Source of the DNA: Prevotella sp.
GTDB taxonomy: Bacteria > Bacteroidota > Bacteroidia > Bacteroidales > Bacteroidaceae
Direction of reading: 5' to 3'
Assembly (NCBI GenBank): GCA_017554385.1
Contig: JAFZIL010000064.1
Span: forward strand, 1 to 32,290
DNA length: 32,290 nucleotides
How positions within the stretch are numbered: the stretch's first letter is position 1; each line of letters begins with the position of its first letter. The notes beneath the pieces are model-generated. The model saw only the letters and a list, made by a program, of their open reading frames with translations, was not told where the DNA came from and did not search any database. Shown here one piece after another: positions 10,473-27,886 of this stretch. Position numbers and translations under genes: made by a program.

Positions 10473-13304
10473 ATGGAACGAAAAACTATCTGGATCAATG
10501 GACGACGGGTGGCACTCGCTGTCTGTGGCCTGTTGATAGGGACGGCGATGCTACAGTCGTGTAAGGACGACGACGTGCTCACCGGCCAGCCATCGTGGCT
10601 GGGTAACTCTATCTACGAGCGGCTGCAGGATGAAGGCAAGTACACCACCACGCTACGCCTCATCGATGATTTGGACCTCAAGGAAGTGCTGGGCCACACC
10701 GGATCGAAGACGCTCTTCGCGGCCGATGATGATGCCTATGCCAAATGGTTCAAAAGCAACGACTGGGGCGTGACCAGCTACGAACAGCTGACCCTCGCCC
10801 AAAAGCGCATGCTGCTGAACAACTCGATGATCAACAATGCCTACCTCATCGAGCTGATGTCGAACGTGTCAGGTACACCCCCCGTAGAGGGCAAGGCCAT
10901 GCGCCGCGAGACAGCATCGAGCATCTACGACTCGGTCTACATCATGAAACCTTCGGAGATGCCCGATACCAAGGTATGGGAGAATTTCAAGTCGCGTGGC
11001 AAGAGCATCCCCATCTTCAAGGATGCCACGAGTGCACCGATGATTCACTTCCTTCCTGCCTTCATGTCGTACAACAAGATTACCGACGAGGACCTCACCA
11101 TATTGACGAACGGCCAGGCCACCTCGGCCAGCGAGGCGTGGGTGAACGGCAAAAAGGTTATCGAGCGTGATATCACCTGCAAGAACGGATATATTCAGAA
11201 GGTGGCTGACGTCATTGAGAGCAGCCCCAACATGGCCGAAATTATCCATCAGGATTCGCGCACCACGACATGGGCTCGTCTGCTTGACCGCTTCTCGGCT
11301 CCTTATTTCTATGCTACGGGCACGCGCGAGTACAATAGAATATATAATAACGAGGATTCCGTCTATATCCTGCGCTATTTCAGTTCACGTTCGTCAGAAT
11401 CGTCGTTGAGCAAGAACACGAATTTTGACCGTCTTCCCGGCGAGACGAATGGCCACTCAATGCTGCGTTTCGACCCAGGATGGAACCAGTACACCTACAA
11501 CAACACCATGGACTACGACCTACACTACGACGCAGGTGCCATGATCGTTCCTACAGACGAGGCAGTAGAGGAGTGGTGGAGCGACCAGGGCAAGGACTTG
11601 CAGGACGAGTATCATTCCATGGACTCCATTCCCGAAGCCACGCTGAGTAAGCTGATCAACGTGAACATGCTCGACGTGTTCACGGCAGCAGTACCTTCGA
11701 AGTTCGGCACCGTGCTCAACGACGCCAAGGAAGTGTTGGGTATCAAGAAGGAGAATGTGGTACAATGCTACATGGGCTGCAACGGTGTGGTCTATGTGGT
11801 GAACAAGGTATTCACACCTGCCGAGTATTCGTCGGTGGCCTATCCCGCACTGGCTCACGAATCGACGATGAACGTTATCTACTGGGTCATCGATCAGCGT
11901 AACTTCCTGCCTTATCTGCTCTCCATGGACTCGAAGTACGCACTGATACTGCCCAACAACAATGCCATGCTCATGTATCTCGATCCTGCTTCTTATGGAG
12001 AAGTGGATAAGAAGAACGGTGCCGAGGCTCCCAACGTCGTGGAGTTTGTCTACGACAGGAAGAAAGGAATATCAGAGCGTGTGCAGGCTGCCAGCTACGA
12101 TACCAATGTCGACGAAAACGGTAATATCGTCAAGACTGGAAGCGTGGTGAAGGGCCAGCTGACGAGTGATGTCATTAATGCCATGGTCGAAGACATGATG
12201 AACCAGCTGATCATCGTGCTGGCCGACAAGACGAAGAACCTCGACGACTATGTCGATGCCGGCTACACCATGTTCAAGACCAAGGGCGGCACGATGCTGC
12301 GCATCACACGTGGTGACGACGGAAGACTGAACATACAGGGTGGCTGGCAGATGGAATATGGCCGCAAAGAACCAGTCGTAGAGTCGTTTACGAAGGTTAA
12401 CGGACGCTCGTATTTGCTGGATTCGCAGATGCCTCTCTCCACGAAGAAGTCGCTCTACATGACGCTGCTGGAGCACGACGAGTATTCGGGCTTCAAAAAA
12501 CTGTTGAACAACGACTTCAGCGACCTGCTCGCGGTGACGCTGAACAACAAGTACAATTCATTGAAAATAGGTGAGAATAATTTGAATATGCGCCTGTTCG
12601 ACAACTATAACTACACCGTATTCATTCCTTCGACCCAGGCCATCGAAGACCTGCAGGCCAAGAAGCTCCTGCCCAACTGGCAAGAACTGGAAAGAGGAAA
12701 GTACGATGAAAAGAAATACATCGATCCCACTGTCGACAGCATCTGTATCGCAGAGAACTGGTATCCTGCTGATGCCGACGACGAAATGAAGAAGGACATC
12801 AGGGCCGATGTGGTGAGCTGTATGAGAAGCGTTGTCACTGACTTCGTACGCTACCACGTCATGGACCGCAGCGTGGCCATCGGCATGGCTCCCGAGGCCA
12901 ACAGCCAGGGCAATTTCTACGAGTCGATGAAGCGTAATCCTGAGACGGGCCGCTTCTTCCGCCTTGAGGTGGAGTTCGACCAGAAGAACCTCACGGTGAA
13001 GGACATCGTGGGCAACACCCGTTCAGTGAAACCCGTCGAAGGTCTTTATAATAATATCTGCCGGGAGTACTGGTTCAAGAACTACGGAACCAACAATGCC
13101 ACCATCTACATGGCCAGCAGTGCCGTTTCCCATCTCATCGACCAGCCGCTCTACTACGGTTATACCTATCCTGACGAGGATGGCGACCTGAACTATGATG
13201 GTGTCAAAGACGACAAGGACAAGAATCTCAGGGGTAAAACCGTTGAGATGCGTCCCTGGCGCGAGATAGTGAGAGAAGCCCTCGTAAAGTACAAGAAGAA
13301 TTAA
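10473..13304 (+). CDS. FAS1 (fasciclin)-domain surface lipoprotein, four FAS1-like modules
   Basis: This 943-residue protein has a lipoprotein signal ending AMLQSC, with the lipidated cysteine at residue 30. It is followed by KDDD, which fits the Bacteroidetes surface-export signal (K followed by acidic residues), so it probably faces outward. Four divergent FAS1-like modules can be traced at about 40-245, 250-450, 465-670 and 675-905. They are marked by the TLFAADDDAY, MIVPTDEAV, ALILPNNNAM and TVFIPSTQAI lines, each preceded by a helix of the type 'L...LDL...L', and several have large insertions. Near the C-terminus a DLNYDGVKDDKD loop fits a 12-residue EF-hand/dockerin calcium site. FAS1 domains mediate adhesion or ligand binding elsewhere; the ligand is unknown here. 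It is the first gene of a seven-gene unit, 7 nt before the SusC gene. Confidence 0.85.
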   Translation: MERKTIWINGRRVALAVCGLLIGTAMLQSCKDDDVLTGQPSWLGNSIYERLQDEGKYTTTLRLIDDLDLKEVLGHTGSKTLFAADDDAYAKWFKSNDWGVTSYEQLTLAQKRMLLNNSMINNAYLIELMSNVSGTPPVEGKAMRRETASSIYDSVYIMKPSEMPDTKVWENFKSRGKSIPIFKDATSAPMIHFLPAFMSYNKITDEDLTILTNGQATSASEAWVNGKKVIERDITCKNGYIQKVADVIESSPNMAEIIHQDSRTTTWARLLDRFSAPYFYATGTREYNRIYNNEDSVYILRYFSSRSSESSLSKNTNFDRLPGETNGHSMLRFDPGWNQYTYNNTMDYDLHYDAGAMIVPTDEAVEEWWSDQGKDLQDEYHSMDSIPEATLSKLINVNMLDVFTAAVPSKFGTVLNDAKEVLGIKKENVVQCYMGCNGVVYVVNKVFTPAEYSSVAYPALAHESTMNVIYWVIDQRNFLPYLLSMDSKYALILPNNNAMLMYLDPASYGEVDKKNGAEAPNVVEFVYDRKKGISERVQAASYDTNVDENGNIVKTGSVVKGQLTSDVINAMVEDMMNQLIIVLADKTKNLDDYVDAGYTMFKTKGGTMLRITRGDDGRLNIQGGWQMEYGRKEPVVESFTKVNGRSYLLDSQMPLSTKKSLYMTLLEHDEYSGFKKLLNNDFSDLLAVTLNNKYNSLKIGENNLNMRLFDNYNYTVFIPSTQAIEDLQAKKLLPNWQELERGKYDEKKYIDPTVDSICIAENWYPADADDEMKKDIRADVVSCMRSVVTDFVRYHVMDRSVAIGMAPEANSQGNFYESMKRNPETGRFFRLEVEFDQKNLTVKDIVGNTRSVKPVEGLYNNICREYWFKNYGTNNATIYMASSAVSHLIDQPLYYGYTYPDEDGDLNYDGVKDDKDKNLRGKTVEMRPWREIVREALVKYKKN

Positions 13305-13311: not shown

Positions 13312-16300
13312 ATGAAAATACTGAAATCCATCATCATCATGCTGGCACTGATGCTCACCACACAGCTCAGTGCGCAGACCATCACGTCGGTTCATGGTAC
13401 CGTGAGCGACGACATGGGCCCGCTGATGGGAGCCACCGTCTGCGAAATCGACGGAACGGGGCGTATCATCAACTCGGCCGTGACCGACCTGAACGGTAAC
13501 TTCACCATGAAGGTGAAGAACCAGAAGGACAAGATCCGATTCACCTACGTGGGTATGAAGGCACAGATACTACCCATCACAAAGACCACGTTCAACATCA
13601 ACATGGCCTCGGCCACACAAATCAAGGAGGTGGTGGTGAAATCGAAGAAGCGTATGCAGGGTAATGCACTACCCATCCCCGAGCGTGAGATATCGTATGC
13701 CACGCAGACCATCTCGATGAAAGAGTTCGAAGGTCTGGGCATTACCTCGGTCGATGAGGCCCTGCAGGGCCGTATCGCCGGTCTCGACATCATTGGAAAC
13801 TCGGGTGACCTGGGCTCCGGCTCGACCATGCGTCTGCGCGGTGCCTCGTCGCTATCCAGTCTCACCGACTCGAATCCACTCATTGTCGTCGACGGTAACA
13901 TCCGCGAGGTGAACCTGAGCGACTTCGACCTGGCTGGTGCCAACAACGAGAAGTTTGCCGAACTGCTGAACATCAACCCCGAGGACATCGCATCGATCAC
14001 GGTGCTGAAGGATGCCGCCGCCACGGCCGTCTACGGTTCACAAGGCGGTAACGGTGTCATCGAGCTGACCACGAAGCGTGGTGTGCGCGGCAAGCCGAAG
14101 CTCACCTACTCGCTGAAGCTCACCGGCACCTATCAGCCGAAAGGCTATGACCTGCTGAACGGTGATGACTACACGATGATGCTGAAGGAGGCCTACTTCA
14201 ATCCCTCGCAGGACGACAACGCCTCGAACATCGACGAGCTGAACTATCTTGGTGCAGCCGACGACTTCGCCGACTGGCGTCAGTACCGTGCCAATACCGA
14301 CTGGCGCGACGAGGTGACTCAATGGGGTCTGCGCCAGAACCACTACGTGACCATCTCGGGTGGTGGTGAGAAGGCTTCGTTCCGTATCGGTGGAGGTTTC
14401 GACCATGAGACGGGTACGATGATCAAGCAGAAGCTGAACCGCTTCTCGACGCGTGTGGCACTGGACTACAACGTCTCTGACCGCATCCGCGTATCGACCA
14501 ACTTCGCCCTGACCTACACGAAGAACGAGATGAACTACGACGGTCTGTTAGGCATCGCACAGAAGAAGATGCCGAACATGAGCATCTACGAGAAAGACCC
14601 CGACACCAACGAGGACACCGACGTTTACTACACCATGCCTCGCGTGGGCATCTACGCTGGCTCGAACGTCTTCAAGGACGACCAGCGTAACTACGTGAAT
14701 CCTGTGGCTTCGGCCAATCTGGCACGCAACGACCGTCGTACCTACGACATGAGTCCTGAGCTGGTCATCAACTACCAGCTGCTGGGCACCGACGCCGACC
14801 ATACCCAGTTGAACTGGCGCGGTAGCGTCTATATGAACATTTTCAACCAGTACGATGACAAGTTCTATCCTTGGGAGTTGAATCCTATTATATATAATAA
14901 TGGTGTGAACGTGGCCTACAACGGCTCGTCGAAGAGCGTGTCGTTCAACACCAAGCAGACCCTTACCTTCATCCCGGCCTTTACGAACAAGGACCACTCG
15001 ATGATGGTACTCGGACGCTTCGAGCTGACCAGCGGATCGAGCAACGGACAGTCGACCAACGCCAACGGACTGGCTACGGGAGTGGAAAGCCCCTCGGCTG
15101 GTGGTCTGAACTACAGCCCCGGCTCGTGGTATAACCAGTGGCGCTCTATGTACTATACCTTCTCGACCCACTACGCCTATAAGGAGCGCTACATTGCCGA
15201 CTTCACAGTGCGTGCCGACGGTACGACGAAGTTCGGTCCGGGCAACCGCTGGGGTTACTTCCCCTCGGTGTCGCTGAAATGGATTGTCAGCGACGAGCCT
15301 TGGTTCGAGAAGCTGAAGCCTACTATCTCCATGCTCGCCTTCCGCCCGTCGTGGGGTCTCGTGGGTAACCAGCCCAACCAAAACTACCTGTACACGTCGA
15401 AATACGGCACCACGAGCATGTACATGGACATGAGCGCCATGGCTCCGCTGAACATCCGACTCACCGACCTGAAGTGGCAGAAGCAGTCCAGCTTCAACGG
15501 CGGTATCGACATTCACTTCTTCGACGAGCGCCTGAAGCTGACCATCGAGGGCTATGTGGCCACGATTACCGACATGCTCATGGCCAATCCACGCATTCCC
15601 TCGAATGTTGGTTTCGCTACACTGCCCTATATCAACGACGGTAAGATGCGTAACATGGGTTGGGAGTTCCATATCAACACCGAGAAACTCATCAAGTCCG
15701 GTAAGTTCTATATGGACGTGAACGCCAACTTCGGTAACAACCGCAATGAGATCTTAGAGATGAACGAGTACATCCTTGACGGACTGAACTCGGTCTACGG
15801 CTATGAGAACGGCGAATGGCTGCGTCGCGTGCAACTGCACAATCCGTTTGGTGCCATCTACGGTTTCAAGTACAAGGGCGTCTATACACACAACTACAAC
15901 ACGTTCGTCAACCTGAATCTCTCTGACGAGCAGTATAAGCAGTTTGTCGAAGGAACGCTGCCCGACGAGTGGTATGCCGAGCACGGATGGGCCAAGCAGC
16001 CCTACAGTGCACCAGTGGCTACTAATGCCGACGGTAGCCTGATTCGCGATGCCAACGGCAATCCGTTGCGCATGATGTACGATTATACCAACCCTGGTAC
16101 AGGCCGCAATGGTAAGAACTACCGGTTCAACGGTGGTGATGCCATCTACGAGGATGCCAACAACGACGGTAACATCAATGCATTGGATATCTGTTACCTC
16201 GGCTCGTCGCTGCCGAAGCTGACCGGTGGTTTCGGTTTTGCGTTCAACTATGGCGACTGGCGCCTGAATACGCAGTTCACCTACCGCGTGGGCAACAAGA

Positions 16301-16707
16301 TCCTGAACATGTCGCGTCTGAACCTGGAGTCGATGCTCTACAACGACAACCAGGCACAGGCCGTGAACTACCGCTGGCGTAAGGAGAGCGACGTGACCAC
16401 CATTCCACGTGCTATGCACGGAAAGAATGCTGCCTACAACTCGCTCGTCAGCGACCGTTATGTTGAGGATGGCTCCTACCTGCGTATGAGCTACGCACAG
16501 CTTTCGTATTCTATTAAGAAGAAGTATCTGACTTGGATCGGACTGAACCGTATTTCGCTCTATGCGTCGATCAACAACCCGTTCGTCATCACGAAGTACT
16601 CGGGTGTTGACCCCGATATCTCGCAGGGCGGCTACGACCCGGCCATCGATAATGCCCAGACACCGCGTTCACGCTCGTATACACTGGGTGTGACGGTTGA
16701 CTTCTAA
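13312..16707 (+). CDS. SusC/RagA-family TonB-linked outer-membrane transporter (first)
   Basis: This 1131-residue protein forms the outer-membrane barrel of a SusCD importer, driven by TonB. It has a signal peptide (1-21, ending LSA), then a carboxypeptidase-like regulatory domain at about 25-105 (VHGTVSDDMGPLMGATV...TDLNGNFTM). A plug domain follows at about 136-256, with LQGRIAGLDI, RLRGASSL, PLIVVDGN, ITVLKDAAATAVYGSQGGNGVI and TTKRG, all hallmark SusC lines. The barrel ends in an aromatic residue (GVTVDF). IYEDANNDGNINALDICYLG is the calcium-loop-like line common in SusC barrels. The gene starts 7 nt after the FAS1 gene and is followed by its SusD partner 34 nt later. The substrate is not evident; no degradative enzyme is linked. 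Confidence 0.97.
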   Translation: MKILKSIIIMLALMLTTQLSAQTITSVHGTVSDDMGPLMGATVCEIDGTGRIINSAVTDLNGNFTMKVKNQKDKIRFTYVGMKAQILPITKTTFNINMASATQIKEVVVKSKKRMQGNALPIPEREISYATQTISMKEFEGLGITSVDEALQGRIAGLDIIGNSGDLGSGSTMRLRGASSLSSLTDSNPLIVVDGNIREVNLSDFDLAGANNEKFAELLNINPEDIASITVLKDAAATAVYGSQGGNGVIELTTKRGVRGKPKLTYSLKLTGTYQPKGYDLLNGDDYTMMLKEAYFNPSQDDNASNIDELNYLGAADDFADWRQYRANTDWRDEVTQWGLRQNHYVTISGGGEKASFRIGGGFDHETGTMIKQKLNRFSTRVALDYNVSDRIRVSTNFALTYTKNEMNYDGLLGIAQKKMPNMSIYEKDPDTNEDTDVYYTMPRVGIYAGSNVFKDDQRNYVNPVASANLARNDRRTYDMSPELVINYQLLGTDADHTQLNWRGSVYMNIFNQYDDKFYPWELNPIIYNNGVNVAYNGSSKSVSFNTKQTLTFIPAFTNKDHSMMVLGRFELTSGSSNGQSTNANGLATGVESPSAGGLNYSPGSWYNQWRSMYYTFSTHYAYKERYIADFTVRADGTTKFGPGNRWGYFPSVSLKWIVSDEPWFEKLKPTISMLAFRPSWGLVGNQPNQNYLYTSKYGTTSMYMDMSAMAPLNIRLTDLKWQKQSSFNGGIDIHFFDERLKLTIEGYVATITDMLMANPRIPSNVGFATLPYINDGKMRNMGWEFHINTEKLIKSGKFYMDVNANFGNNRNEILEMNEYILDGLNSVYGYENGEWLRRVQLHNPFGAIYGFKYKGVYTHNYNTFVNLNLSDEQYKQFVEGTLPDEWYAEHGWAKQPYSAPVATNADGSLIRDANGNPLRMMYDYTNPGTGRNGKNYRFNGGDAIYEDANNDGNINALDICYLGSSLPKLTGGFGFAFNYGDWRLNTQFTYRVGNKILNMSRLNLESMLYNDNQAQAVNYRWRKESDVTTIPRAMHGKNAAYNSLVSDRYVEDGSYLRMSYAQLSYSIKKKYLTWIGLNRISLYASINNPFVITKYSGVDPDISQGGYDPAIDNAQTPRSRSYTLGVTVDF

Positions 16708-16741: not shown

Positions 16742-18514
16742 ATGATTACCAAATATATCAAAAAGGCAGCGAAGGGAGTAACCTACATGTTGCTCTACTT
16801 CTCTACTCCCCTGCTCCTCATTTCCTGCTCCGACTTCCTCGAGATTAAGTCGACAAGTGAAATCGTGCTGGAGGACTTCTGGAACGAGAAGGCCGACGTA
16901 GACAATATCGTGGCAGGCTGCTACTCGCGCCTACAGAGCGACGACGTGATGTGCCGCATGATTGTATGGGGCGAGGCTCGAAGCGAAAATGTGAAGAACG
17001 GTAGTGGCAACGATGGTGCCGACTACGACGGAAACTTGGAGAATGTGCTCAAGGAGAACATCACCTTCAAGAACACCTATGCTACCTGGGACGGCTTCTA
17101 CACCGTCATCAACCGTTGTAACACCGTACTGAAATATGCGCCTGGTGTGGCTGAAAGCGACCCGGGCTACACACAGAGTGAGCTGCGTGCTACGCGTGCC
17201 GAGGTGTCGGCACTGCGCGACCTCTGCTACTTCTATCTGATACGCACGTTCCGCGACGTGCCCTATTCCACCGAGGCTTATACCGACGACAACCAGTTCA
17301 TGACACTTGAGCCCATGGATTTCTACCAAGTACTCGACAAGCTCATTGCCGACCTTGAAAGTATTCAGGACGATGCCATCGGACGCTATCCGGAAAATAA
17401 GAAGGAATATCAGACCGGACGTATCACCAAGTGCGCCATCTGGGCCATGCTCTGTGAGATGTATCTCTGGAAGGGCGACTACGACAATTGCATCAAGTAT
17501 GCCGACTTGGTCATTGAGGATAAGAAGGCACTGACCATTGAGCGTCGCAGCGACGGAGCCAGCCAGAGCAATAGCAACCGTACGAACGGTTTCCCGTTGG
17601 TGAATAATGGTACTTCGGGCTCCTTCGGTACTGCCTTCGGCCAGATTTTCGCTACAGGCAACAGTCAAGAGACTATTTTTGAACTGGTGTTTGACAGCGA
17701 CGCAGGCAATAGCCGCGTGGGTAACAGTGCTTGCGGACGCCTCTACGGACGTGATTTCCTGTCACCAGCAACTTGTGTGACCGACGACGTAGGCAAAGAG
17801 TCGGATCGTGTAATCTATGCCGAACGTAACAAGAAGGTGGATGCCCGCATCTACTGGAATACCAACAGCAATAAAAACACGTTCTGCAAATATGTTCATC
17901 GCACTGTGGGTATCGAGACTTCCGGTACTACCGTCACTACCATCAGCTATGGTTCGACTTACAACTACGAGAAGAAGAACAATGCTGACCATTACTACAA
18001 CAGCAGCAACTGGATTATCTATCGTCTGACCGACATCATGCTGCTCAAGGCTGAGGCCATCAGCCAGAAGCTGAGTGACGGTGCCGAGCAGGCAGATATC
18101 GATTACAACAAGCCGCTGCTGGCCGAAGCTTTCAATTTGGTGAATGCTGTGAACAAACGCTCCGTGTGCCAGCAGACCCTGACCGACACCCTTCGTGCTA
18201 TCGATTACAACACGAAGGATCGCATGCAAAAGCTCGTCATGCAGGAGCGCCAGCGTGAGCTGATGTATGAGGGCAAGCGCTGGTACGACCTCGTCCGTCA
18301 GTGTATGCGCGAAGACAACACACAGGCTGTGCTCGACGCCATGGGTAACCGCGACGGCATCAACTCACAGTATGTGAAGAATTTCTTCAGCGGCAGTGTA
18401 GGCAAGTATGCCATCTTCTGGCCTTACTATATTGAGGAGACGAAGGTGAGTCCGCCGTTGGCCAACCACCAGAATCCTGCCTTTGGCAGTGGTGAAGGCA
18501 ATATCTCCAAATAA
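16742..18514 (+). CDS. SusD/RagB-family surface nutrient-binding lipoprotein (first)
   Basis: This 590-residue lipoprotein is the partner lid of the preceding SusC barrel and captures substrate at the surface. The signal peptide ends LLLISC with the lipidated Cys29. SusD lines follow: FLEIKSTSEIVLEDFWN near the N-terminus, CYSRLQ, the TPR-like YLIRTFRDVPYS, MYLWKGDYDNCIKYAD, IIYRLTDIMLLKAEA, and the C-terminal RQRELMYEGKRWYDLVR. Its signal-peptide DNA is nearly identical to that of the FAS1 gene at 20691 over the first 38 nt or so, although the mature proteins are unrelated. It is in the same transcription unit as the genes on both sides (34 and 30 nt gaps). Confidence 0.96.
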   Translation: MITKYIKKAAKGVTYMLLYFSTPLLLISCSDFLEIKSTSEIVLEDFWNEKADVDNIVAGCYSRLQSDDVMCRMIVWGEARSENVKNGSGNDGADYDGNLENVLKENITFKNTYATWDGFYTVINRCNTVLKYAPGVAESDPGYTQSELRATRAEVSALRDLCYFYLIRTFRDVPYSTEAYTDDNQFMTLEPMDFYQVLDKLIADLESIQDDAIGRYPENKKEYQTGRITKCAIWAMLCEMYLWKGDYDNCIKYADLVIEDKKALTIERRSDGASQSNSNRTNGFPLVNNGTSGSFGTAFGQIFATGNSQETIFELVFDSDAGNSRVGNSACGRLYGRDFLSPATCVTDDVGKESDRVIYAERNKKVDARIYWNTNSNKNTFCKYVHRTVGIETSGTTVTTISYGSTYNYEKKNNADHYYNSSNWIIYRLTDIMLLKAEAISQKLSDGAEQADIDYNKPLLAEAFNLVNAVNKRSVCQQTLTDTLRAIDYNTKDRMQKLVMQERQRELMYEGKRWYDLVRQCMREDNTQAVLDAMGNRDGINSQYVKNFFSGSVGKYAIFWPYYIEETKVSPPLANHQNPAFGSGEGNISK

Positions 18515-18523
18515 TCGAAAACT

Positions 18524-18544: not shown

Positions 18545-20656
18545 ATGATTACTAAGAATATCAAAAGATTCCTCCTTGCCGTCACGGTGTGCTGTGGCTT
18601 TGTCACAGGACTCACTTCATGCTCCGACGAGCCTGACAGTGAGTACTTCTACACCTTCAACGGCGAGATGATGAGCGACTATCTCATCAATCGTCCGGAA
18701 TACAGTATGTTCACGGAGATCGTAGAACGGGCCAACCTGATGGACTTGCTGGCCACCTATGGCAAATACACCTGTTTTGCGCCCAACGACTCGGCCGTTA
18801 CCCTCTATCTGAAATCGCACAACATGCGTTCGGTGTCAGATCTGACCGATGCCGACTGCGATACCATTGCCCGCACCCATCTCGTGCCCAACATCTACTC
18901 CACGCTCGAGATGAATCAGACCAACCTGCCGACAGCCAACATGCAAGGGCGATACCTTGCCACTTCGGCTGACACCATCGACGGCCATCCCGTGATACGA
19001 ATCGAACAGACGGCGTATATTTATTATGAGCTGCAGAACGACTCCGTAGAAAATGGTATCATGCAGCCCGTGAGCAGAGTTATTGAGAAATCGAACAGCT
19101 CCGCTGCCGATATTCTGCGTCAGAACTCACGCATCAGCATCTTCTATGATGCACTTGTGGCTACTGGTGTTTACGATGACATTCTGTTGGTCGAGGATCC
19201 TGACTGGGATCCCAAGGAATATGGCAAGTACTACTATAAGAGCCACACCTGGAACGAGGTGGCGTGGGTGCCTGACACGAAGAAGTATGGCTTCACGCTG
19301 TTCATTGAGCCAGACTCCATTTATCAGGCCGAGTTCCAAAAGCGGGGAATCAGTACCGCTCAAGGCAATATGCGTGCCCTCTATGAACTGGCCTGCCAGC
19401 TCTACGACCCGGTATATCAAGATGATGTAAACGCTCCGGGCCACAGCTATGAAAACCTGACCGACAGCGTCAACCCGCTGCGCCGCTTCATTCAGTACCA
19501 CATCCTCAACCGTTACGTGCCCGGATCGAGCAGTCTTACGGCACTGATGATGACGGTGGCTGGTGTCAACGAGGCCTTCGGCTTTGAGGGCAAACTGGTC
19601 AACCCCGTGGACTGGTATACCACTTTGCTGCCCCATACGATGATTAAGGTTGAGCAGCTCACCATGGACAAGGACCGCGACGGCAACGACTGCCGCGGTA
19701 TTGACGGTGCCCACGTGGGCGGGCACTTCCTCAACCGCTGCTATGAGAAAGGCAACACCATTCGTGGTGCTCTGGTTGATTCGAAAATTGAGACCAATCC
19801 TACCCACGATGCCATCAATGGCCATTATTTCTATGTCGATGACATCGTGGCCTTCACGAAGACCGTGCAGGAGGTGGTACACAACACTCGTATCCGTATG
19901 GACTTCTCGGCCATCTTCCCCGAGGTGATGACCAACGACATGCGATTGAAGGGTAACCCGAGAGAGGATGATAATGCAGGTACTCCCGACGATGCATCAG
20001 TGCCCAAGAACGGACGAAACTATTATTTCCCCTTGGGATATCTCGACGGTGTGACGTTCACCAACTGTTACTGCGTGATGCGCCGTCCCCACATCAACTT
20101 CTGGTCGTGGCAGGGCGACGAGTGGAACCTCTTCGGAGACTACGACTTCACCTTCCGCATTCCGCCAGTGCCCTCCAGTGGCGAGTATCAGTTGCGACTG
20201 GGCTTCTGCGCCATTGAGACACGTGGTGTGATGCAGGTCTACTTTGATGGCGTGCCGCAGGGCATCCCCCTCGACATGACCAAGTTCTTGAATTCAGAGC
20301 TTTATATTGGTGACCGTTTCACCACTGATGAGACTGCTGCCACCTATGACAAGATGAGCGACGAGGATAAGGCTGAGGAGCAGAAGCTGCTGCGCAACCT
20401 CGGTGCTTACCGTGATGGAAGGTCACAGTATCATTTCGGCAACACGAAAAACTATTTCGTTGGTAACGAGCGTACTTATCGACGCATCCTCTGCCAGACC
20501 TATATCGATGCCACGAAGGATCATTACATACGTTTCCGCGTGGCTTCAGACGGTAAGCAAGGTAACAACAACGAGTTCATGCTCGACTTCTTCGAGATTG
20601 TGCCCAAGAGTGTCTACAGCGTTGATGGTGAAGGCGAAATGGAAGACGATCTGTAA
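18545..20656 (+). CDS. FAS1-domain surface lipoprotein with a C-terminal beta-sandwich-like domain
   Basis: This 703-residue protein has a lipoprotein signal ending GLTSC (Cys26) followed by SDEPDSE, an acidic stretch suited to surface export. The first FAS1 module is at about 35-185, with YTCFAPNDSAV and a helix before it. A second, more divergent module is at about 190-440 and includes FTLFIEPDS, FIQYHILNRYV and the closing HYFYVDDIVAF. Residues about 470-690 form a further domain rich in beta-strand patterns and aromatics (PHINFWSWQGDEWN, YDFTFRIPPVPSSGEYQLRLGF, VMQVYFDGVPQG), resembling a jelly-roll binding domain; its name is not certain to me. The gene sits between the first SusD and another FAS1 gene. 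Its signal peptide shares only the MITK start with its neighbours. Ligand unknown. Confidence 0.82.
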   Translation: MITKNIKRFLLAVTVCCGFVTGLTSCSDEPDSEYFYTFNGEMMSDYLINRPEYSMFTEIVERANLMDLLATYGKYTCFAPNDSAVTLYLKSHNMRSVSDLTDADCDTIARTHLVPNIYSTLEMNQTNLPTANMQGRYLATSADTIDGHPVIRIEQTAYIYYELQNDSVENGIMQPVSRVIEKSNSSAADILRQNSRISIFYDALVATGVYDDILLVEDPDWDPKEYGKYYYKSHTWNEVAWVPDTKKYGFTLFIEPDSIYQAEFQKRGISTAQGNMRALYELACQLYDPVYQDDVNAPGHSYENLTDSVNPLRRFIQYHILNRYVPGSSSLTALMMTVAGVNEAFGFEGKLVNPVDWYTTLLPHTMIKVEQLTMDKDRDGNDCRGIDGAHVGGHFLNRCYEKGNTIRGALVDSKIETNPTHDAINGHYFYVDDIVAFTKTVQEVVHNTRIRMDFSAIFPEVMTNDMRLKGNPREDDNAGTPDDASVPKNGRNYYFPLGYLDGVTFTNCYCVMRRPHINFWSWQGDEWNLFGDYDFTFRIPPVPSSGEYQLRLGFCAIETRGVMQVYFDGVPQGIPLDMTKFLNSELYIGDRFTTDETAATYDKMSDEDKAEEQKLLRNLGAYRDGRSQYHFGNTKNYFVGNERTYRRILCQTYIDATKDHYIRFRVASDGKQGNNNEFMLDFFEIVPKSVYSVDGEGEMEDDL

Positions 20657-20662
20657 ATTATT

Positions 20663-20678: not shown

Positions 20679-20690
20679 AAATTGAGAACT

Positions 20691-22595
20691 ATGATTACCA
20701 AATATATCAAAAAGGCAGCAAAGGGAGTAGCCTACTTACTCCTTTACTCCTCTACTCCTCTACTCCTCGCCTCGTGTAGTGACACTTGGGACGATCACTA
20801 TGAGGGAACCGTTGCTGGCGCGAATGACGGCTCGTTGTGGGAGGCTATACGCAACAATCCCGAGCTCAGCAATTTTACCAGTGTCATTGAGGCTACAGGC
20901 TATGACAAGTCATTGGGAAGCAGCCAGGTGTTTACCGTTTTTGCTCCGACCAATGCCAACTTCTCCAAGTCTGAAGCCGACGAGCTCATCGCGCAGTACA
21001 AGCTTGAGAAGCAGACCGTGAACGATGCCGACAATACTGTCATCAAGGAGTTTGTACAGAACCATATTGCCCTGTTCAACTACTCTGTGTCGCCGTCGAG
21101 CAACGATTCCATCGTACTGATGAATGGCAAGTACGCTGTATTGAAGTCCGGTGCCTTAGACAACAGCACGTTCCAGCTTACCAACCAGCTTTATGGCAAT
21201 GGCGTGCTCTTCACCGTGAGCGAGCCCGTTCATTACTCGGCTAATGTGTTTGAGTACATGCGCAAGGATGCCGAGCTCGACAGTGTGCGTGCATTCCTTT
21301 ACAATCCTTGGTTCTATTATAAGAAGTTCAATCCTGCCAGCAGTGTTGAGGGTGGTATCGACGAACTGGGCCGCACCATCTATCTTGACTCAGCTTTCGT
21401 TCAGCGCAACGACCTGTTCGAGGAACTTGGCGAGATCAACTCCGAGGACAGCACCTACTGGATGATTGTTCCCACTAACGACCAGTGGCGACTTCTCCTG
21501 GAACAGTATGAGCCTTACTTCAAGTACGATACAAGAATAGGCAACCAGCTCACCGTAGGTACGCTCGACTCGCTTATCTATACCAACACCCGTATGGCCA
21601 TCCTGAAGGGTACCACCTTCAGTCGCACCATCAATAAGAACATCTTTGCTGGTGTGAAGTCAAGCGGAATCGACTCGGTCTATTCTACCAATGCCGTGCT
21701 CGACTACAACAAGCGTAATACGATGTGGGGCAACAACTTCAACTATTTCCAGTATTTCAACCCGTTAGTGTCTGGCGGTGTGCTGGACGAAGCCGACAGC
21801 GTGTCGTGTAGCAACGGCCGCGTGATGAAGGTTCACGACTGGAAACTCAATGAGTTGCAGACCTTCAACCGCTGGATTGTCGTTCAGGCCGAGAGCGCTG
21901 GCAGCATCAAGGAAATTTCGACGAGTGTCGACAAAAACGGTAATATTGTCCCATTGGCCAACAACATCAACCGCAGCGTGACCAACAACGAGTACAAGAA
22001 GCATGTATGGAACAACAGTTTTGTGGAGTTCCAGCCTACTACGACATCGATGTATGAAATAACGTTCAACATCAAGAACCTGTTGTCGAACATGGGCTAC
22101 GACATTTATCTTGTGTCAGCTCCTGCAGCAGCAGCCGATAGCAATGCCGTGGATACACTTGGCACGAAATTGCGTTGCTCGCTGAAATACTATGACCACG
22201 ACGGCAAGGCCATTACTGATCTTCTAACCTCTAAACATACCCCAAGTCTCACGCAGCCACGTGCCACCTCAGCGGGCATCATCGAGACCAAGGGTACGGA
22301 GATGGACTATATCCTCCTTGCAGAGGACTACAAGTTCCCCGTCTGTACCTACGGTGTCAAAGAGGACGATCCTGAAGTGCGTCTTTACGTGGAAAATCGT
22401 ACTAAGAACTCAGACATGAATGATGGCAAGTTCAACAAGGTTACCCGTATCGACTGCATCCTGCTCGTTCCCCACGGCACCTTGCAACTTGTTGACAACC
22501 TTGGCGAGTATGTCTCACCACAGTATCAGGGAATGCCTGGCGTGCTCATGTTCCCGCATGGTAACAACCTCATGTATTATTATATGTTCCGATAA
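20691..22595 (+). CDS. FAS1-domain surface lipoprotein
   Basis: The ATG at 20691 gives 634 residues and matches the MITKYIKKAAKGV start of the first SusD, so it is preferred over an in-frame TTG at 20682. The signal ends LLLASC (Cys29), followed by SDTWDDHYEG. One clear FAS1 module spans about 45-185 (LWEAIRNNPELSNFTSVIEATGYDKSL, VFTVFAPTNANF, FVQNHIALFNY, VLFTVSEPVHYSANVFEYM). A second partial module may follow (TYWMIVPTNDQWRLLLEQYE). Residues about 390-634 look beta-rich (MYEITFNIKNLL, LRLYVENRT-type lines) and could be another binding domain. The signal-peptide DNA contains four tandem 8-bp repeats. It precedes the second SusC gene by 26 nt, so each SusC is directly preceded by a FAS1 gene. 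Confidence 0.83.
   Translation: MITKYIKKAAKGVAYLLLYSSTPLLLASCSDTWDDHYEGTVAGANDGSLWEAIRNNPELSNFTSVIEATGYDKSLGSSQVFTVFAPTNANFSKSEADELIAQYKLEKQTVNDADNTVIKEFVQNHIALFNYSVSPSSNDSIVLMNGKYAVLKSGALDNSTFQLTNQLYGNGVLFTVSEPVHYSANVFEYMRKDAELDSVRAFLYNPWFYYKKFNPASSVEGGIDELGRTIYLDSAFVQRNDLFEELGEINSEDSTYWMIVPTNDQWRLLLEQYEPYFKYDTRIGNQLTVGTLDSLIYTNTRMAILKGTTFSRTINKNIFAGVKSSGIDSVYSTNAVLDYNKRNTMWGNNFNYFQYFNPLVSGGVLDEADSVSCSNGRVMKVHDWKLNELQTFNRWIVVQAESAGSIKEISTSVDKNGNIVPLANNINRSVTNNEYKKHVWNNSFVEFQPTTTSMYEITFNIKNLLSNMGYDIYLVSAPAAAADSNAVDTLGTKLRCSLKYYDHDGKAITDLLTSKHTPSLTQPRATSAGIIETKGTEMDYILLAEDYKFPVCTYGVKEDDPEVRLYVENRTKNSDMNDGKFNKVTRIDCILLVPHGTLQLVDNLGEYVSPQYQGMPGVLMFPHGNNLMYYYMFR
20737..20768 (+). repeat. Four tandem 8-bp repeats inside a signal-peptide coding region
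   Basis: TACTCCTT (20737) is followed by three perfect TACTCCTC units at 20745, 20753 and 20761. They encode part of the hydrophobic signal segment LLLYSSTPLLL. Because 8 is not a multiple of 3, gain or loss of a unit would shift the frame. Degenerate relatives occur at the same place in the genes at 16742 and 25931. Confidence 0.75.
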
Positions 22596-22621: not shown

Positions 22622-25600
22622 ATGAATATGAAACGATATATCTTATTTGGACTGACCATGCTGCTGGCCTTCCCTTTAGGCGTTTTCGCTCAGAACGATA
22701 GCGACGACGAGGAGGAAGGCACAGAGACTGCCGTACGTACTTTCGTACCGAAGCAGAAGCAGTATGAGACACGCACCGTCAAGGGCCTTGTTATCGATGC
22801 TGCCACCCAGCAGCCTATTGCAGGTGCCATTGTCCGTGCCTCAGAGACCGATGGTTACAGTGTGCTCACCGAGGACGACGGCAGCTATGAGCTGAAGGTG
22901 CCTCTCTTCTCGACGGCTCTCTTCATCTCCTCGCCCGACTATAATCCCGTGCGTATTGGCCTTCAGAGTGGTGATAAACAGAAGACTGCCAAGCTCTATA
23001 CCACAACCTTCAGTGCCGAGTATCAGGCTCAGACGAACGTACGTAACGACTATGTGGCCTCTGACTTCAAGTTCTCCAACGCTATCAATATCAAGGAAGA
23101 GGTGCAGAAGCAGCTGGGGGCTCAGGCCTACACCATCGGCCATAACGGCACGCCGGGCGTGGGAAGCGTGATGTTCCTTCAGGGACTCAACTCGCTCAAT
23201 GTGAATGCCCAGCCACTCGTTGTCATCGACGATGTCATCGTTGACCAGCAGTACGGTCGCACCTTGCTCCACGACGGATTCTACAACGACATCCTGTCGA
23301 GTCTGAATCCCGCCGACATTGAGCGTGTCACCGTCATGCGCAACGGTACTGCCCTTTATGGTGCCAAGGGTGCCAATGGTGTCATCTTGATTCAGACGCG
23401 TCGCAACAAGTCGATGGCTACCCGTATCACTGCCAGCGCTTCAGCAGGCGTGACCTTTGAGCCCAAGTATGTCTCGGTCATGGATGCCGGTGGTTATCGT
23501 GGCTATGCCTCTGAGTTGCTCAAAACCACCAATACCCGACTGAACTCTTTCAAGTTCCTCGACGAGCGTCAGGTGCTCGACAATGGCGACCAGAACTATT
23601 ATTATCCCATCTATCACCAGTCCACTGACTGGAAGGAATACGTCTATCGTACTGCTTTCACGCAGAACTACGGTATCAACATCGAGGGTGGTGACGACGT
23701 GGCCAACTACAATCTGTCCGTAGGCTACACCAACGCCAAGAGTACGTTGAAGATGAACGACATGGATCGCCTGAACGTGCGGTTCAATACCGACATCACC
23801 CTGCTCAAGCAGTTGGCCGTACGCTTCGATGCCTCATTTGCTAACCAGACGCGCAATCTGCGCAACGACGGTGCTCCTGAGAACTATGATGAAGGCACAC
23901 CGACGAGCCCCGCATTCTTAGCCTATGTGAAGAGTCCTTTCCTCAGTCCCTATAGCTATGGTCGCGGACAGTTCTCCTCCGACCACTGGAACACCGATAA
24001 GGAAGACTATCTGAAAGAGGCACTGGCCAACTATAGCAGCTACAACTGGCGTTTGGGCAACCCCGCTGCTATCCTCGAGTACAGCGATGCCGAGAACAAG
24101 AACCACTTCGAGAACTCAATGCTGAACCTCACCGTCACACCGAAGTTCCAGTTCAATTCCAACCTCTTCCTATCTGAGCATTTCAGCTATAACCTTGTTA
24201 ATACGAACGAGATGTACTACATTCCCATCAATGGTACACCCGACTATTATGTCTCCAGCATTGGCGCCTATCGCCAGAACGAGGTACGCTCGCTGGCTTC
24301 AAAGCAGAACTCTGTGCAGAGCGACACCCGTATCGACTGGCACAACCGCTTTGCTGCCCACTACCTTCACCTCTTTGGTGGTCTGCGTGTAAACTGGGAG
24401 AGCTTCACCACTAACTCGCAGGTGGGCTATAACACTGGTAGCGACAAGACTCCGTTCTTGAGTTCTTCGCTTCAGAATGTCGACGTGGCCGGTGTCGATG
24501 AGAGTTGGAATACCATGTCATGGTATGGTCAGGCCGAGTATAACTATATGTCGCGCTATTTCCTGCAGGCCTGCTTTGCCATCGACGGTTCGTCACGTTT
24601 TGGTAAGGATGCCGACGGCCTGAAGGTCGGTGGTGTCGCCTGGGGCATATTCCCCAGTGTTCAGGCATCGTGGGTAATGACCAACGAGCCTTGGCTTTCC
24701 GATGTCAGCGGTATCGACTATTTGCGTCTCTCTGCCGGTTACGATATATCTGGTAACGACGACATCGACTTCTATGCCGCACGTTCCTATTTCCGTGCCA
24801 CGCAGTTCCTTCACGCCGTGTCTGCCCTGTCCTATGAAGGTATTGGTAACACCAAGATCCAGTGGGAGACCACTCGCCGACTGAACCTCGGTCTTGAAGG
24901 CAACTTCATCGACAACCGCCTGAACCTTTCGCTCAACTACTTCCGTTCGAAGACCGACAACCTGCTCACGCGCCAGTCATTAGGCTTCCTCAGCGGTCTT
25001 AACCAGAACTGGTCCAACGGTGGTAAGCTCCAGAACGAAGGTTTCGACGTGAGTGCAGCCGTGAAAGTTGTTGCCCGCAAGAACTGGCAGTGGTTGGTAG
25101 GTGCATCGATGGGTCACTACAAGAACCAGATTACCGAACTGCCCGACAATGCCAGCTTCATGGATAACGAGGTCTACGGTGCTACCATCCGTAGTCAGGT
25201 GGGACAGGCTGCCAATCTGTTCTATGGCTATCGCACCAACGGTGTCTTCGCAACCACGCAGGATGCCGAGAATGCTGCCCTCTATGTCATCGATGATAAT
25301 GGTGTAGACCATGTCTATTTCCAGGCAGGCGACATGCGTTTCGTCGACATGAACGGTGACCATGAGATTAATGCCGACGATCGCGTCATCATTGGCGATC
25401 CCAATCCCGACATCTACGGTAATATCTTCACCACGGTGGCCTGGAAGCGTCTGAAGCTCGATGTGCGCTTCAACTACTCTCTTGGCAACGATGTCTACAA
25501 TTACATGCGTCAGCAGCTCGAGAGTGGTTCGCGCTTCATGAACCAGACCACTGCCTTGGACCGTCGTTGGCAAGTTGAAGGTCAGGTGACCGATATTCCA

Positions 25601-25894
25601 CGCATCACCTTCCAGGATCCCATGGGCAACGCCCGTTTCAGCGATCGCTGGATTGAGGATGGTTCCTATCTGCGTCTGAAGACAGCTACGCTGAGTTATG
25701 ATCTCCCCATGAAGTCTGAGTACATCCAGGGCTTGCAGTTATGGATCCAGGGTAACAACCTGCTCACCTTCACCAAGTATCTGGGTAGCGATCCTGAGTT
25801 CTCCATGACGGGTAGTGTCATTGGTCAGGGCATCGATCTGGGTCGTCTGGGGCAGAGTCCCAGCATCGTAGCTGGTGTGAAGATCAACCTGTAA
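22622..25894 (+). CDS. SusC/RagA-family TonB-linked outer-membrane transporter (second)
   Basis: This 1090-residue barrel protein has a signal peptide (about 1-23, ending GVFA), a short acidic linker (DSDDEEEGTE), and a carboxypeptidase-like regulatory domain at about 52-130 (VKGLVIDAATQQPIAGAIV...TEDDGSYEL). The plug at about 160-255 is more divergent than in the first SusC but keeps FLQGLNSLN, PLVVIDDVI, LNPADIERVTVMRNGTALYGAKGANGVI and QTRRN. The barrel contains VDMNGDHEINADDRVIIG, the SusC calcium-loop-like line, and FSDRWIEDGSYLRLKTATLSYDLP near the end; the final residue is Leu rather than an aromatic. It starts 26 nt after a FAS1 gene and precedes its SusD by 36 nt. The two SusC proteins are clearly different paralogues, so they likely take different ligands. 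Confidence 0.95.
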   Translation: MNMKRYILFGLTMLLAFPLGVFAQNDSDDEEEGTETAVRTFVPKQKQYETRTVKGLVIDAATQQPIAGAIVRASETDGYSVLTEDDGSYELKVPLFSTALFISSPDYNPVRIGLQSGDKQKTAKLYTTTFSAEYQAQTNVRNDYVASDFKFSNAINIKEEVQKQLGAQAYTIGHNGTPGVGSVMFLQGLNSLNVNAQPLVVIDDVIVDQQYGRTLLHDGFYNDILSSLNPADIERVTVMRNGTALYGAKGANGVILIQTRRNKSMATRITASASAGVTFEPKYVSVMDAGGYRGYASELLKTTNTRLNSFKFLDERQVLDNGDQNYYYPIYHQSTDWKEYVYRTAFTQNYGINIEGGDDVANYNLSVGYTNAKSTLKMNDMDRLNVRFNTDITLLKQLAVRFDASFANQTRNLRNDGAPENYDEGTPTSPAFLAYVKSPFLSPYSYGRGQFSSDHWNTDKEDYLKEALANYSSYNWRLGNPAAILEYSDAENKNHFENSMLNLTVTPKFQFNSNLFLSEHFSYNLVNTNEMYYIPINGTPDYYVSSIGAYRQNEVRSLASKQNSVQSDTRIDWHNRFAAHYLHLFGGLRVNWESFTTNSQVGYNTGSDKTPFLSSSLQNVDVAGVDESWNTMSWYGQAEYNYMSRYFLQACFAIDGSSRFGKDADGLKVGGVAWGIFPSVQASWVMTNEPWLSDVSGIDYLRLSAGYDISGNDDIDFYAARSYFRATQFLHAVSALSYEGIGNTKIQWETTRRLNLGLEGNFIDNRLNLSLNYFRSKTDNLLTRQSLGFLSGLNQNWSNGGKLQNEGFDVSAAVKVVARKNWQWLVGASMGHYKNQITELPDNASFMDNEVYGATIRSQVGQAANLFYGYRTNGVFATTQDAENAALYVIDDNGVDHVYFQAGDMRFVDMNGDHEINADDRVIIGDPNPDIYGNIFTTVAWKRLKLDVRFNYSLGNDVYNYMRQQLESGSRFMNQTTALDRRWQVEGQVTDIPRITFQDPMGNARFSDRWIEDGSYLRLKTATLSYDLPMKSEYIQGLQLWIQGNNLLTFTKYLGSDPEFSMTGSVIGQGIDLGRLGQSPSIVAGVKINL

Positions 25895-25909
25895 TCTGAA
25901 TTGAAAATT

Positions 25910-25925
25910 GATAATTGAAAATTGA
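25910..25925 (+). promoter_or_regulatory. AT-rich repeated leader core before the second SusD gene
   Basis: GATAATTGAAAATTGA ends 5 nt before the ATG at 25931. The 36-nt gap after the SusC stop consists mostly of repeats of this motif. Confidence 0.6.
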
Positions 25926-25930
25926 TAATT

Positions 25931-27886
25931 ATGATTACCAAAGTAAACAATAAAGCGGTGGCAGGAGTATTCTCCTTACTCCTCTTCTCCTCTACTCCTT
26001 TACTACTGGGGTCTTGCACCGATTTCTTTGAGCAGGAGTCCGAACATGTCATTTATTCCGACAAAGACCATCTCTACAATTGGTCCGACACGGTCTACTC
26101 TGTTATGGGCATCCTCAGCAAGTTGCAGGTTGTTGCCGACCGCACCATCCTTCTTGGTGAGGTGCGTGGCGATCTGGTCTCACTGACGTCTGAAGCCAAC
26201 TCCGACCTGCGCGACGTGGCAGCGTTTAATATTGGTGATGACAACCAGTACAATCAGCCGCGCGACTACTATGCCATCATCAATAACTGTAACTACTACA
26301 TTGCCCATGCCGACACAGTGCTGAAGAGCAATCGTAACGAGTACATCTTCATGAAGGAGTATGCCGCCGTGAAGGCCATCCGTGCCTGGGTTTACCTGCA
26401 ACTCGGTCTTAACTACGGCAACGTGCCCTTCGTCACTGAGCCCATCCTCACCAAGGAGGAGAGCGAGCGTGACTATCCGAGCTACTCGCTGCAGCAGATT
26501 TGTGAGTTCTTCCTCAAAGACCTCGCCACTCTGCCCGAACGCTACGATACGGAGTACCCGTATTATGGTGACAACGTGCGTGGCAACGACTCTCGCGTGT
26601 TCTTCTTCCCGCTCAATATCATACGTGGCGACCTGAACCTCTATCTCGGTTGCCTCAAGGGCACCAGTGGCGGTCAGCAGAACTTTGAGCAGGCAGCTCT
26701 CTGTTACTACAAGTATATCAGCAACCGCAATGGTCTCAACTCGTTCTACGGTAGTGGTATTGATTTCTGTATGCACAAACCGGGCACGTCCATGTGGACC
26801 GAGAATCTGTCGTTTATGAACTTCCCCAACGGATCGGTTACTGGTCATTCGGCACTGCGAACCCTGTTCTATGAAAGTGGGAGCATTAAGATGGAGCACT
26901 TCAGTCCTCAAAGTGAGCTTATTACTATGATTCCTGGCGACTCTATCCGAGCCGAGGGTAACTACAGTGAGTTGCGTAACCTCTTCTATTCCCGTTCTGA
27001 GAACGACAACAAGGTGAGCATCTCTCCCTCAAAGCGTATACAGGAAATCTCCGAGTCGCAGGTCAACTGCTGTCTCGCCAGCAATGGTAATAGCGCTTCC
27101 TATGCACCCACCGACCTCAGCGAGCACCGCGCTGGCGACCTTCGCCTGAGCATGTTCTGGTTGGAGGACACCCAGAGGGACGATATCACCGGCGGACGCA
27201 TCGAAACACAATACCTGTACAAATATGTTACACGCAATGTGCGCATCTACCGTCGCCAGATGATCTACCTCCGGCTGGCCGAGGCACTCAACTGGGCTGG
27301 CTATCCGTTAGTGGCATTTAAGATCTTGCAGCGCGGACTGTCAGACAAGGTGTTTGAGAAAGAGATTTATCCCTATGTCAGTGCTGCTGACAGCACTTGG
27401 CTTGCCAACTACATGTTCTTTGATGACCAGTATAAGGTCATAGAGGCTGAAGACCTGGTGACAAACGACTTTAGCAAAGCCAACTCGATGGGTATGCACT
27501 CACGTGGTTCCGGTTATACGCCTATGAACGACTTCTACACCATCACAGGCCTGAATCAGGTTCCCCAGCGCATGCTCGAGGACTCTACCTACGTGTTCGA
27601 TGACAATCTCTATGCCAGCTTCAAGGCGGCACAGCAGTTGGAAGTCGACAGTCTGATCATCAACGAGAGCGCATTGGAGTTTGCCTTCGAGGGTACGCGC
27701 TTCTACGACCTCATGCGCTATGCCTGGCGTCAGCCCGACCCCGGCCTCGCCATGGAGAACTTCATTCTTGCCCGTCGTGGCGAACAAAACCGCGAACTGG
27801 TGCGTAGTGACCTGAAGAAGTCACTGCGTCAGGAGTCTAACTGGTTCCTTAACTGGAACGGGCGCCTTGGTATGACTGGCAAATAA
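25931..27886 (+). CDS. SusD/RagB-family surface nutrient-binding lipoprotein (second)
   Basis: The ATG at 25931 gives 651 residues; an in-frame TTG at 25922 is rejected because MITK matches the starts of three neighbouring lipoproteins. The signal ends LLLGSC (Cys29), followed by TDFFEQESE. SusD features include YAIINNCNYYIAHADTVL, AVKAIRAWVYLQLGLNYGNVPFVTEPI, the repeat-type helix IYRRQMIYLRLAEALNWAGYP, and the C-terminal ESALEFAFEGTRFYDLMRYAW. It is longer than most SusD proteins (usually about 500-600 residues). The 8-bp signal-region repeats are present but degenerate (25977-26008). It is the last gene of the seven-gene unit, followed by a strong terminator. Confidence 0.95.
   Translation: MITKVNNKAVAGVFSLLLFSSTPLLLGSCTDFFEQESEHVIYSDKDHLYNWSDTVYSVMGILSKLQVVADRTILLGEVRGDLVSLTSEANSDLRDVAAFNIGDDNQYNQPRDYYAIINNCNYYIAHADTVLKSNRNEYIFMKEYAAVKAIRAWVYLQLGLNYGNVPFVTEPILTKEESERDYPSYSLQQICEFFLKDLATLPERYDTEYPYYGDNVRGNDSRVFFFPLNIIRGDLNLYLGCLKGTSGGQQNFEQAALCYYKYISNRNGLNSFYGSGIDFCMHKPGTSMWTENLSFMNFPNGSVTGHSALRTLFYESGSIKMEHFSPQSELITMIPGDSIRAEGNYSELRNLFYSRSENDNKVSISPSKRIQEISESQVNCCLASNGNSASYAPTDLSEHRAGDLRLSMFWLEDTQRDDITGGRIETQYLYKYVTRNVRIYRRQMIYLRLAEALNWAGYPLVAFKILQRGLSDKVFEKEIYPYVSAADSTWLANYMFFDDQYKVIEAEDLVTNDFSKANSMGMHSRGSGYTPMNDFYTITGLNQVPQRMLEDSTYVFDDNLYASFKAAQQLEVDSLIINESALEFAFEGTRFYDLMRYAWRQPDPGLAMENFILARRGEQNRELVRSDLKKSLRQESNWFLNWNGRLGMTGK

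Follow-up and report, generated by a model that had tools for sequence, protein, structure and literature searches.

SusC/SusD-type (SusCD) importers determine which nutrients Bacteroidota take up, and an operon on contig JAFZIL010000064.1 of a Prevotella sp. draft genome (GCA_017554385.1) combines two of them with three fasciclin (FAS1) proteins. The contig (C61 in our numbering) was analyzed over its entire length of 32,290 nucleotides (the window); the draft genome amounts to 3.06 Mb and is 81% complete, and the contig ends lie close to the operon. Seven genes in the order FAS1a-SusC1-SusD1-FAS1b-FAS1c-SusC2-SusD2 span 10473-27886, all on the plus strand, and a Pfam scan of the operon proteins found no enzyme or regulator within this span. 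A sequence-only reading of the window had proposed a fixed partnership between FAS1 lipoproteins and these importers. We found that the seven-gene arrangement is a conserved module.

Conservation and co-inheritance of the seven genes

All 12 Fasciclin matches in the genome of the window fall within five loci, and at each of these (5/5) the seven genes stand in the same order. The five paralogues are 24-64% identical, and every paralogue gene best matches its own slot of the window operon. Judged by FAS1b, the nearest named relatives are found in a Prevotella metagenome-assembled genome (MAG; 71% identity) and in Xylanibacter brevis (59%; best segment in both cases). A collection scan with a FAS1b alignment returned at least 488 relatives, of which the 79 loci with the best FAS1b matches were kept. 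The complete order is present in 64 of the 79, and 11 others are cut by contig ends or contain a split open reading frame (ORF), yet are consistent with the order; two Paraprevotella loci carry FAS1b in duplicate. Because these 79 loci are the best FAS1b matches, we took a separate sample from the genus, in which 28 of 60 genomes, counting that of the window, have Fasciclin matches. Of the remaining 27 genomes, we took 20 in list order. The best match from each lies in the arrangement (20/20), with 16 complete and four contig-cut loci; the 16 include one in which SusC2 is split (L212; L numbers are our locus handles) and one in which FAS1a is cut by the edge of the region (L214). The fifth-slot gene of four genus loci (L202, L204, L209, and L220) has the right size and place and was missed by the profile, and that of L213 gave a weak profile score, yet Fasciclin was found in it by Pfam.

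For the order, profile searches identified relatives of FAS1b in 65 of 294 genomes; for the phylum, relatives of FAS1a, many of them weak and short, came up in 36 of 296. Three genomes of the same family but of other genera gave no FAS1b match in the profile search. Among 20 regions fetched from other families or orders and picked for their FAS1 matches, 17 fit the arrangement, four being complete and 13 cut by an edge; two of the 13 add a FAS1b gene after SusD2. One further region, L127, is a contig of 7 kb whose end lies just upstream of FAS1b; its remainder resembles the tail of L129. Six regions from five genomes (L139-L144) belong to the same class as the window genome but to a different order. 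The sequence-only reading had left conservation to a search of other genomes; that search finds the arrangement within the genus, within the order, and in same-class genomes of other orders.

As a control, the best FAS1 gene was taken from each of the first 20 genomes of the phylum search list. These genes encode proteins of 166-297 amino acids, and neither SusC nor SusD was found in any of the 20 surrounding stretches (up to 14 kb, 7 kb per side, with four stretches shortened by contig ends); the control covers short FAS1 proteins, not other long ones. The comparison of 0/20 with the operon loci argues that the multi-FAS1 lipoprotein group is tied to SusCD and that ordinary FAS1 genes have no such tie. 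We also compared gene trees for the 65 loci in which all seven genes are single-copy. Pairwise distances between operon genes correlate at 0.76-0.92, and each gene tree has 40-47 strongly supported splits, of which 33-43 recur in each other gene's tree. Because the gene trees largely agree, we conclude that the operon was mostly inherited and duplicated as a block; the congruence speaks for joint inheritance and not for contact between the proteins, since a shared locus history alone suffices to produce it. Together, the loci of the window genome, the 64 complete relatives, the genus sample, the control, and the congruent trees bear out the proposal of a fixed partnership.

Domain make-up and layout of the operon

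Both SusC/SusD pairs are SusCD nutrient importers, each consisting of a SusC/RagA protein above the curated cut-off and an adjacent SusD. SusC1 (13312..16707) and SusC2 (22622..25894), the TonB-linked outer-membrane components, score 669 and 550 bits against the NCBIfam family OMP_RagA_SusC (TIGR04056; cut-off 368). Both contain a Plug domain above the Pfam cut-off; for the CarboxypepD_reg-type domain, SusC1 passes the cut-off and SusC2 falls below it. The nearest solved chain for SusC1 (E 7.2e-97) and SusC2 (E 2.3e-80) is 8aa4, labeled merely "SusC homolog". Of the lid lipoproteins, SusD1 (16742..18514) is above cut-off for both SusD_RagB (PF07980) and PF14322, and the divergent SusD2 (25931..27886) is above cut-off for PF07980 (29.5 bits; cut-off 23.1) and below it for PF14322.

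FAS1a, FAS1b, and FAS1c belong to the Pfam family Fasciclin (PF02469) with 56, 44, and 31 bits, respectively (cut-off 22). All three are predicted lipoproteins based on a signal peptide and a lipobox, both judged by eye, and the lipobox Cys (Cys30 in FAS1a) is invariant in each of three 23-sequence alignments; as such, they would be exposed at the cell surface. The AlphaFold2 model of FAS1a (10473..13304; 943 amino acids) has a pLDDT of 84, and its Foldseek alignment to periostin/TGFBIp spans about 900 columns. From the model and this span, we read the protein as an array of about four FAS1 modules. In the FAS1b model (18545..20656; pLDDT 86), the FAS1 part, about two modules, aligns with periostin over about 400 columns. 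Further Foldseek matches of FAS1b are the MiXBM structure 7ehg and the carbohydrate-binding module (CBM) family 35 entries 2w1w, 2wz8, and 2w47, one of which carries d4,5-anhydrogalacturonate. The Foldseek table gives no query range, and we infer that these matches fall on the C-terminal beta domain of FAS1b, which we refer to as CBM-like; by sequence, FAS1b has no CBM match in Pfam at E up to 0.01 and is not a CBM35 member. FAS1c (20691..22595) is recognized as a FAS1 protein by sequence profile and appears to consist of one or more FAS1 modules and a C-terminal region. The four modules of FAS1a and the additional beta-rich domain of FAS1b had been predicted from sequence, and the structure models agree.

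The seven ORFs comprise, in order, 943, 1131, 590, 703, 637, 1090, and 654 codons and are separated by gaps of 7, 34, 30, 34, 26, and 36 nucleotides, counted from ATG starts at 20691 for FAS1c and 25931 for SusD2, which are likely the starts in use rather than the listed TTG codons at 20682 and 25922. The operon ends at a strong terminator-like hairpin on the plus strand (27912..27940) with an 11-bp stem, eight G-C pairs, and a T run; another plus-strand hairpin of this kind (10244..10273) separates it from an upstream gene for a 1208-amino acid protein. A terminator scan of the window returned 18 sites compared with 13.9 in shuffled sequences (standard deviation 3.4). Because this total is not above chance, single weak sites carry no meaning. 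The ORFs, the Pfam and NCBIfam matches, and the hairpin at the operon end thus confirm the earlier description of seven genes on a single strand with gaps of 7-36 nucleotides and a strong terminator.

A repeated leader on the plus strand lies over the starts of SusD1, FAS1b, FAS1c, and SusD2 (16703-16763, 18506-18566, 20652-20712, and 25892-25952; 80-87% identity). It consists of AATTGAAA-type repeats that continue, across the start codons, into ATG ATT ACY AAR. With up to two mismatches, the pattern has 24 matches genome-wide, of which the five FAS1 operons account for 18; the reversed pattern has none. Based on within-locus comparisons, shared leaders are strong in the window genome and present in only some other loci, and the leaders are therefore not part of the conserved module. 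They may represent a shared translation or regulation element or the outcome of gene conversion. In L201 (contig C94, about 38922-39003), two leader copies lie on opposite strands and point toward each other across about 40 bases.

Neighboring genes and the ligand question

The sequence-only reading had characterized the locus as free of degradative enzymes and regulators. This holds for 10473-27886; moreover, a scan of 15 window proteins, on a contig whose ends are close, found no sensor or regulator (hybrid two-component system [HTCS] protein, SusR, or extracytoplasmic function sigma factor). The operon lacks both the degradative enzymes and the linked sensor that characterize a polysaccharide utilization locus. 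As a general property of such operons, the claim does not stand. Within the window genome, genes for a DUF6055 protein and an HTCS lie downstream of the C15 copy, an HTCS gene (Pfam) lies downstream of the C45 copy, which also has a GH127 gene about 7 kb upstream, and GH115 and GH43 genes lie downstream of the C62 copy; several relatives have HExxH proteins, HTCS genes, or carbohydrate-active enzymes nearby.

For a broader view, flanking proteins of the 79 loci and of the own-genome copies were grouped by BLAST, with Pfam scans on chosen representatives of 253; in most of the 79 loci, the flanks extend no further than about 2 kb, and several of the scanned proteins yielded no informative family. 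HTCS genes lie downstream in 13 of the 79 loci as assigned by BLAST cluster only. In the BLAST group of the DUF6055 protein, of which one member was scanned, HExxH is present in 22/22 and a Glu 8-28 residues later in 18/22; in an upstream BLAST group, HEGIH with a later Glu is present in 17/17. Because both groups belong to one operon clade, these counts are not independent. The DUF6055 protein at C15 matches the NCBIfam family Svx weakly (34 bits; cut-off 625). The C15 copy and several relatives are bracketed by the two HExxH families, HEGIH upstream and the DUF6055 type downstream (L011:5726-6964 and L012:8874-11444).

Near distant copies, we found genes for GH28, GH88/105, GH95, GH106, PL22, GH115, and GDSL and SASA esterases, and near some of them a sugar-use cluster that we read as rhamnose-type. 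The 17 flanking proteins scanned for the genus copies include GH97, GH95, GH43, a GDSL esterase, and two HTCS-type propellers, the remainder being mostly repeat domains or nothing known. By eye, housekeeping-like genes occupy at least one side of the window-type copies from X. brevis and two MAGs, and genes downstream of window-type copies encode GH51 (L047) and an M6 peptidase (L049, X. brevis). At a greater distance, X. brevis also has what looks by eye like a second SusCD locus.

In the window, the 1208-amino acid protein encoded immediately upstream of the operon (6564..10190, plus strand) has, by eye, a signal-like start, repeated jelly-roll-like segments, and a tail resembling those of the type IX secretion system (T9SS). 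It has no Pfam or NCBIfam match, including to the T9SS-type tail families. Such a tail exceeds a family cut-off only in a protein of L133 (27 versus 23 bits) and is below it in the C15 protein; a protein of L132 has a Pfam T9SS-type tail above cut-off. BLAST-cluster relatives of the 1208-amino acid protein lie upstream of the operon in eight of the 79 loci, including window-type copies, and its gene is probably a companion with its own transcription unit. We rejected the idea that the proteins encoded upstream of four own-genome copies share an ancestor: their alignment reflects similar tails with no convincing shared core, and the protein upstream of C15 is of the HExxH type. Further upstream in the window, past a symporter gene on the opposite strand, are genes for an M4 (thermolysin-type) peptidase and a PF00756 esterase. 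Past the operon terminator, CotH-kinase-like and FkbH-like genes lie on the minus strand at 28002-31669.

On the non-polysaccharide ligand considered in the sequence-only reading, the signals point both ways: protease-like and polysaccharide enzymes occur alike near copies of the operon, and 8aa4 precedes the peptide importer RagA as the nearest solved SusC. We counted pectin-type enzyme genes around 57 operons in 23 genomes, using a null of random position, not of other SusCD loci; nine tests were made, and P values are uncorrected. Operon positions were copied by hand, and for one of them (G427) a contig end replaced FAS1a. The count used 139 rows for GH28 (seven second pieces of counted genes were dropped), 106 rows for GH88/105 among the matches listed (those with E up to 1.6e-30, excluding second pieces), and 50 of 52 rows for the control family GH92. 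Within 25 kb of an operon were 13/139 GH28 genes (expected 7.8, P 0.046), 14/106 GH88/105 genes (expected 6.0, P 0.002), and 3/50 GH92 genes (expected 1.2, P 0.12). The corresponding numbers were 9 (P 0.12), 8 (P 0.07), and 1 (P 0.60) within 15 kb and 8 (P 0.09), 8 (P 0.02), and 1 (P 0.52) within 10 kb. Given this weak count and the similar fold change of GH92, on few genes, we rejected pectin as the single substrate and kept it only as a rival explanation.

Function of the operon and related systems

On balance, we think it more likely than not that the operon encodes a single, utilisome-like module for nutrient uptake at the outer membrane, in which FAS1 lipoproteins capture ligands or serve as a scaffold and neighboring genes provide enzymes and sensors. 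The recurrence of the order across the class suggests joint action of the seven proteins in a single uptake machine. In such a module, inherited and duplicated en bloc, the two SusCD importers would provide TonB-driven channels and their lids, and the three FAS1 lipoproteins would occupy the usual position of surface glycan-binding proteins (SGBPs). The role of scaffold or docking arm could fall to the FAS1a array; ligands could be caught by FAS1b, in which a CBM-like domain joins the FAS1 modules, and perhaps by FAS1c. Cutting enzymes and sensors would lie outside the module and be supplied by neighbor genes that vary from copy to copy. The proteins would assemble physically, and the ligands may be of plant cell wall origin (glycans and/or wall glycoproteins) and differ between paralogues; the presence of five divergent copies in one genome suggests a platform serving several ligands.

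Several observations weigh against this interpretation. Two of the 79 loci (L112, with 1.2 kb on one side, and L120) have a FAS1b-like gene but no SusCD in the visible sequence, L131 has FAS1b but no SusCD within about 9 kb, and L138 holds two FAS1 genes, not three. The ligand signal is mixed and the pectin-enzyme enrichment modest; the fold change within 25 kb is no better than that of GH92, and in the window genome, none of the six GH28 and none of the four GH88/105 matches lies within 25 kb of the five copies. The CBM-like match reflects a common jelly-roll fold, with beta-glucuronidases and Cry proteins in the same FAS1b list, and the neighbor counts were drawn from related loci and hence are not independent. 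Finally, the joint complex, its expression, and its ligand binding are predictions from genes. The surroundings of the isolated genes, by contrast, count in favor of the interpretation, as do the enzymes and HTCS genes flanking relatives and the CBM35 fold matches of FAS1b: the L131 gene lies near GH127, GH78-type, and apiosidase-type genes, and the L112 and L120 genes adjoin a GH51-cluster gene.

Tandem SusCD pairs occur in polysaccharide utilization loci, and the operon might encode two independent importers that are merely co-transcribed, each with its own FAS1 surface binding protein and without a joint complex. The FAS1b-type genes without SusCD and the locus that is one FAS1 gene short are consistent with this possibility, to which we give about one chance in four; however, the examined loci with enough sequence have both pairs in the same order, and none has a single pair with FAS1. 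At the other extreme, because two different SusCs co-occur in the examined loci, the boldest reading allowed is that SusC1-SusD1 pairs obligately with SusC2-SusD2. FAS1 arrays would hold this mixed (hetero) SusCD pair, which would replace the two like SusCs of the levan utilisome and represent a separate machine class across Bacteroidia. Some copies would then be tuned to plant cell wall O-glycoproteins (extensin or arabinogalactan proteins) cut by neighboring secreted gluzincin-type proteases and enzymes releasing arabinose or galactose. We regard this reading in its entirety as unlikely, at about one chance in five.

That all copies import pectin or rhamnogalacturonan is, in our estimate, a still more doubtful proposition. 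It draws on the GH28, GH88/105, PL22, GH106, and GH95 genes, the SASA/GDSL esterases or rhamnose-type cluster near several distant copies, and the CBM35-like fold in FAS1b; the enrichment is modest, however, the five copies of the window genome have no such GH28 or GH88/105 neighbors, and the window-type copies of X. brevis and the two MAGs lie beside housekeeping-like genes. We consider it improbable, at about one chance in ten, that the operon is an adhesion module in which FAS1 arrays anchor the bacterium on other cells or plant particles, with the importers simply gaining from the proximity. Among solved structures, the FAS1 parts come closest to the matrix proteins periostin and TGFBIp, and a role in adhesion was proposed for fasciclin and similar domains in marine flavobacteria (PMC2668756). 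However, the FAS1 genes are interleaved in a fixed manner with two SusCD pairs and co-inherited with them, ordinary FAS1 genes are not placed beside SusCD, and a 2018 review of FAS1 deems "cell adhesion" context-dependent and possibly misleading for bacteria (PMC6032426).

If the favored interpretation of a single uptake module is correct, an old, block-inherited operon with two different importers and three fasciclin lipoproteins would represent a second architecture for such machines and give bacterial FAS1 domains a concrete role; moreover, the question of mixed SusC pairing becomes directly testable. The parts of the operon are already known; for their combination, we found no published description in the accessible literature, subscription papers and preprints being outside the search. 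Periostin and TGFBIp share FAS1 modules with the operon proteins, with FAS1a aligned over about 900 columns; by contrast, the operon FAS1 proteins are predicted lipoproteins in an importer operon, and FAS1b adds a putative CBM-like domain. RagAB imports peptides. Like the operon pairs, RagAB (6sli) is a SusCD-type importer, and HExxH proteins or peptidase genes lie beside several copies of the operon; however, RagA is a weaker match than 8aa4 for both SusC1 and SusC2, and we know of no FAS1 partner of RagAB.

In Gramella portivictoriae (Flavobacteriaceae), the legend of Fig. 6 in PMC4891872 labels a "FAS1 domain protein" in a cellulose/hemicellulose-like polysaccharide utilization locus. This SusD-bearing locus thus resembles the operon in containing a FAS1 gene; however, the gene is only labeled, and the accessible part of the paper describes no operon with twin SusCD pairs and three FAS1 genes. 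Like the Svx peptidases of Pectobacterium (PMC10815107 and PMC9266454), the DUF6055 protein that follows the C15 copy contains HExxH and a later Glu, but it lies far below the family cut-off and is a companion of C15-type copies that is absent from the window. The closest parallels are the levan and dextran utilisomes of Bacteroides thetaiotaomicron, in which accessory lipoproteins are stably mounted on SusCD and, in the levan case, two copies each of SusC, SusD, SGBP, and hydrolase form one complex (PMC7618045). The operon shares with them a SusC/SusD core and extra lipoproteins from the same locus. It differs from these machines in having two different SusCD pairs and no surface enzyme; in its assembly, which is predicted from genes, three FAS1 lipoproteins would replace the SGBP with its Ig-like domains.

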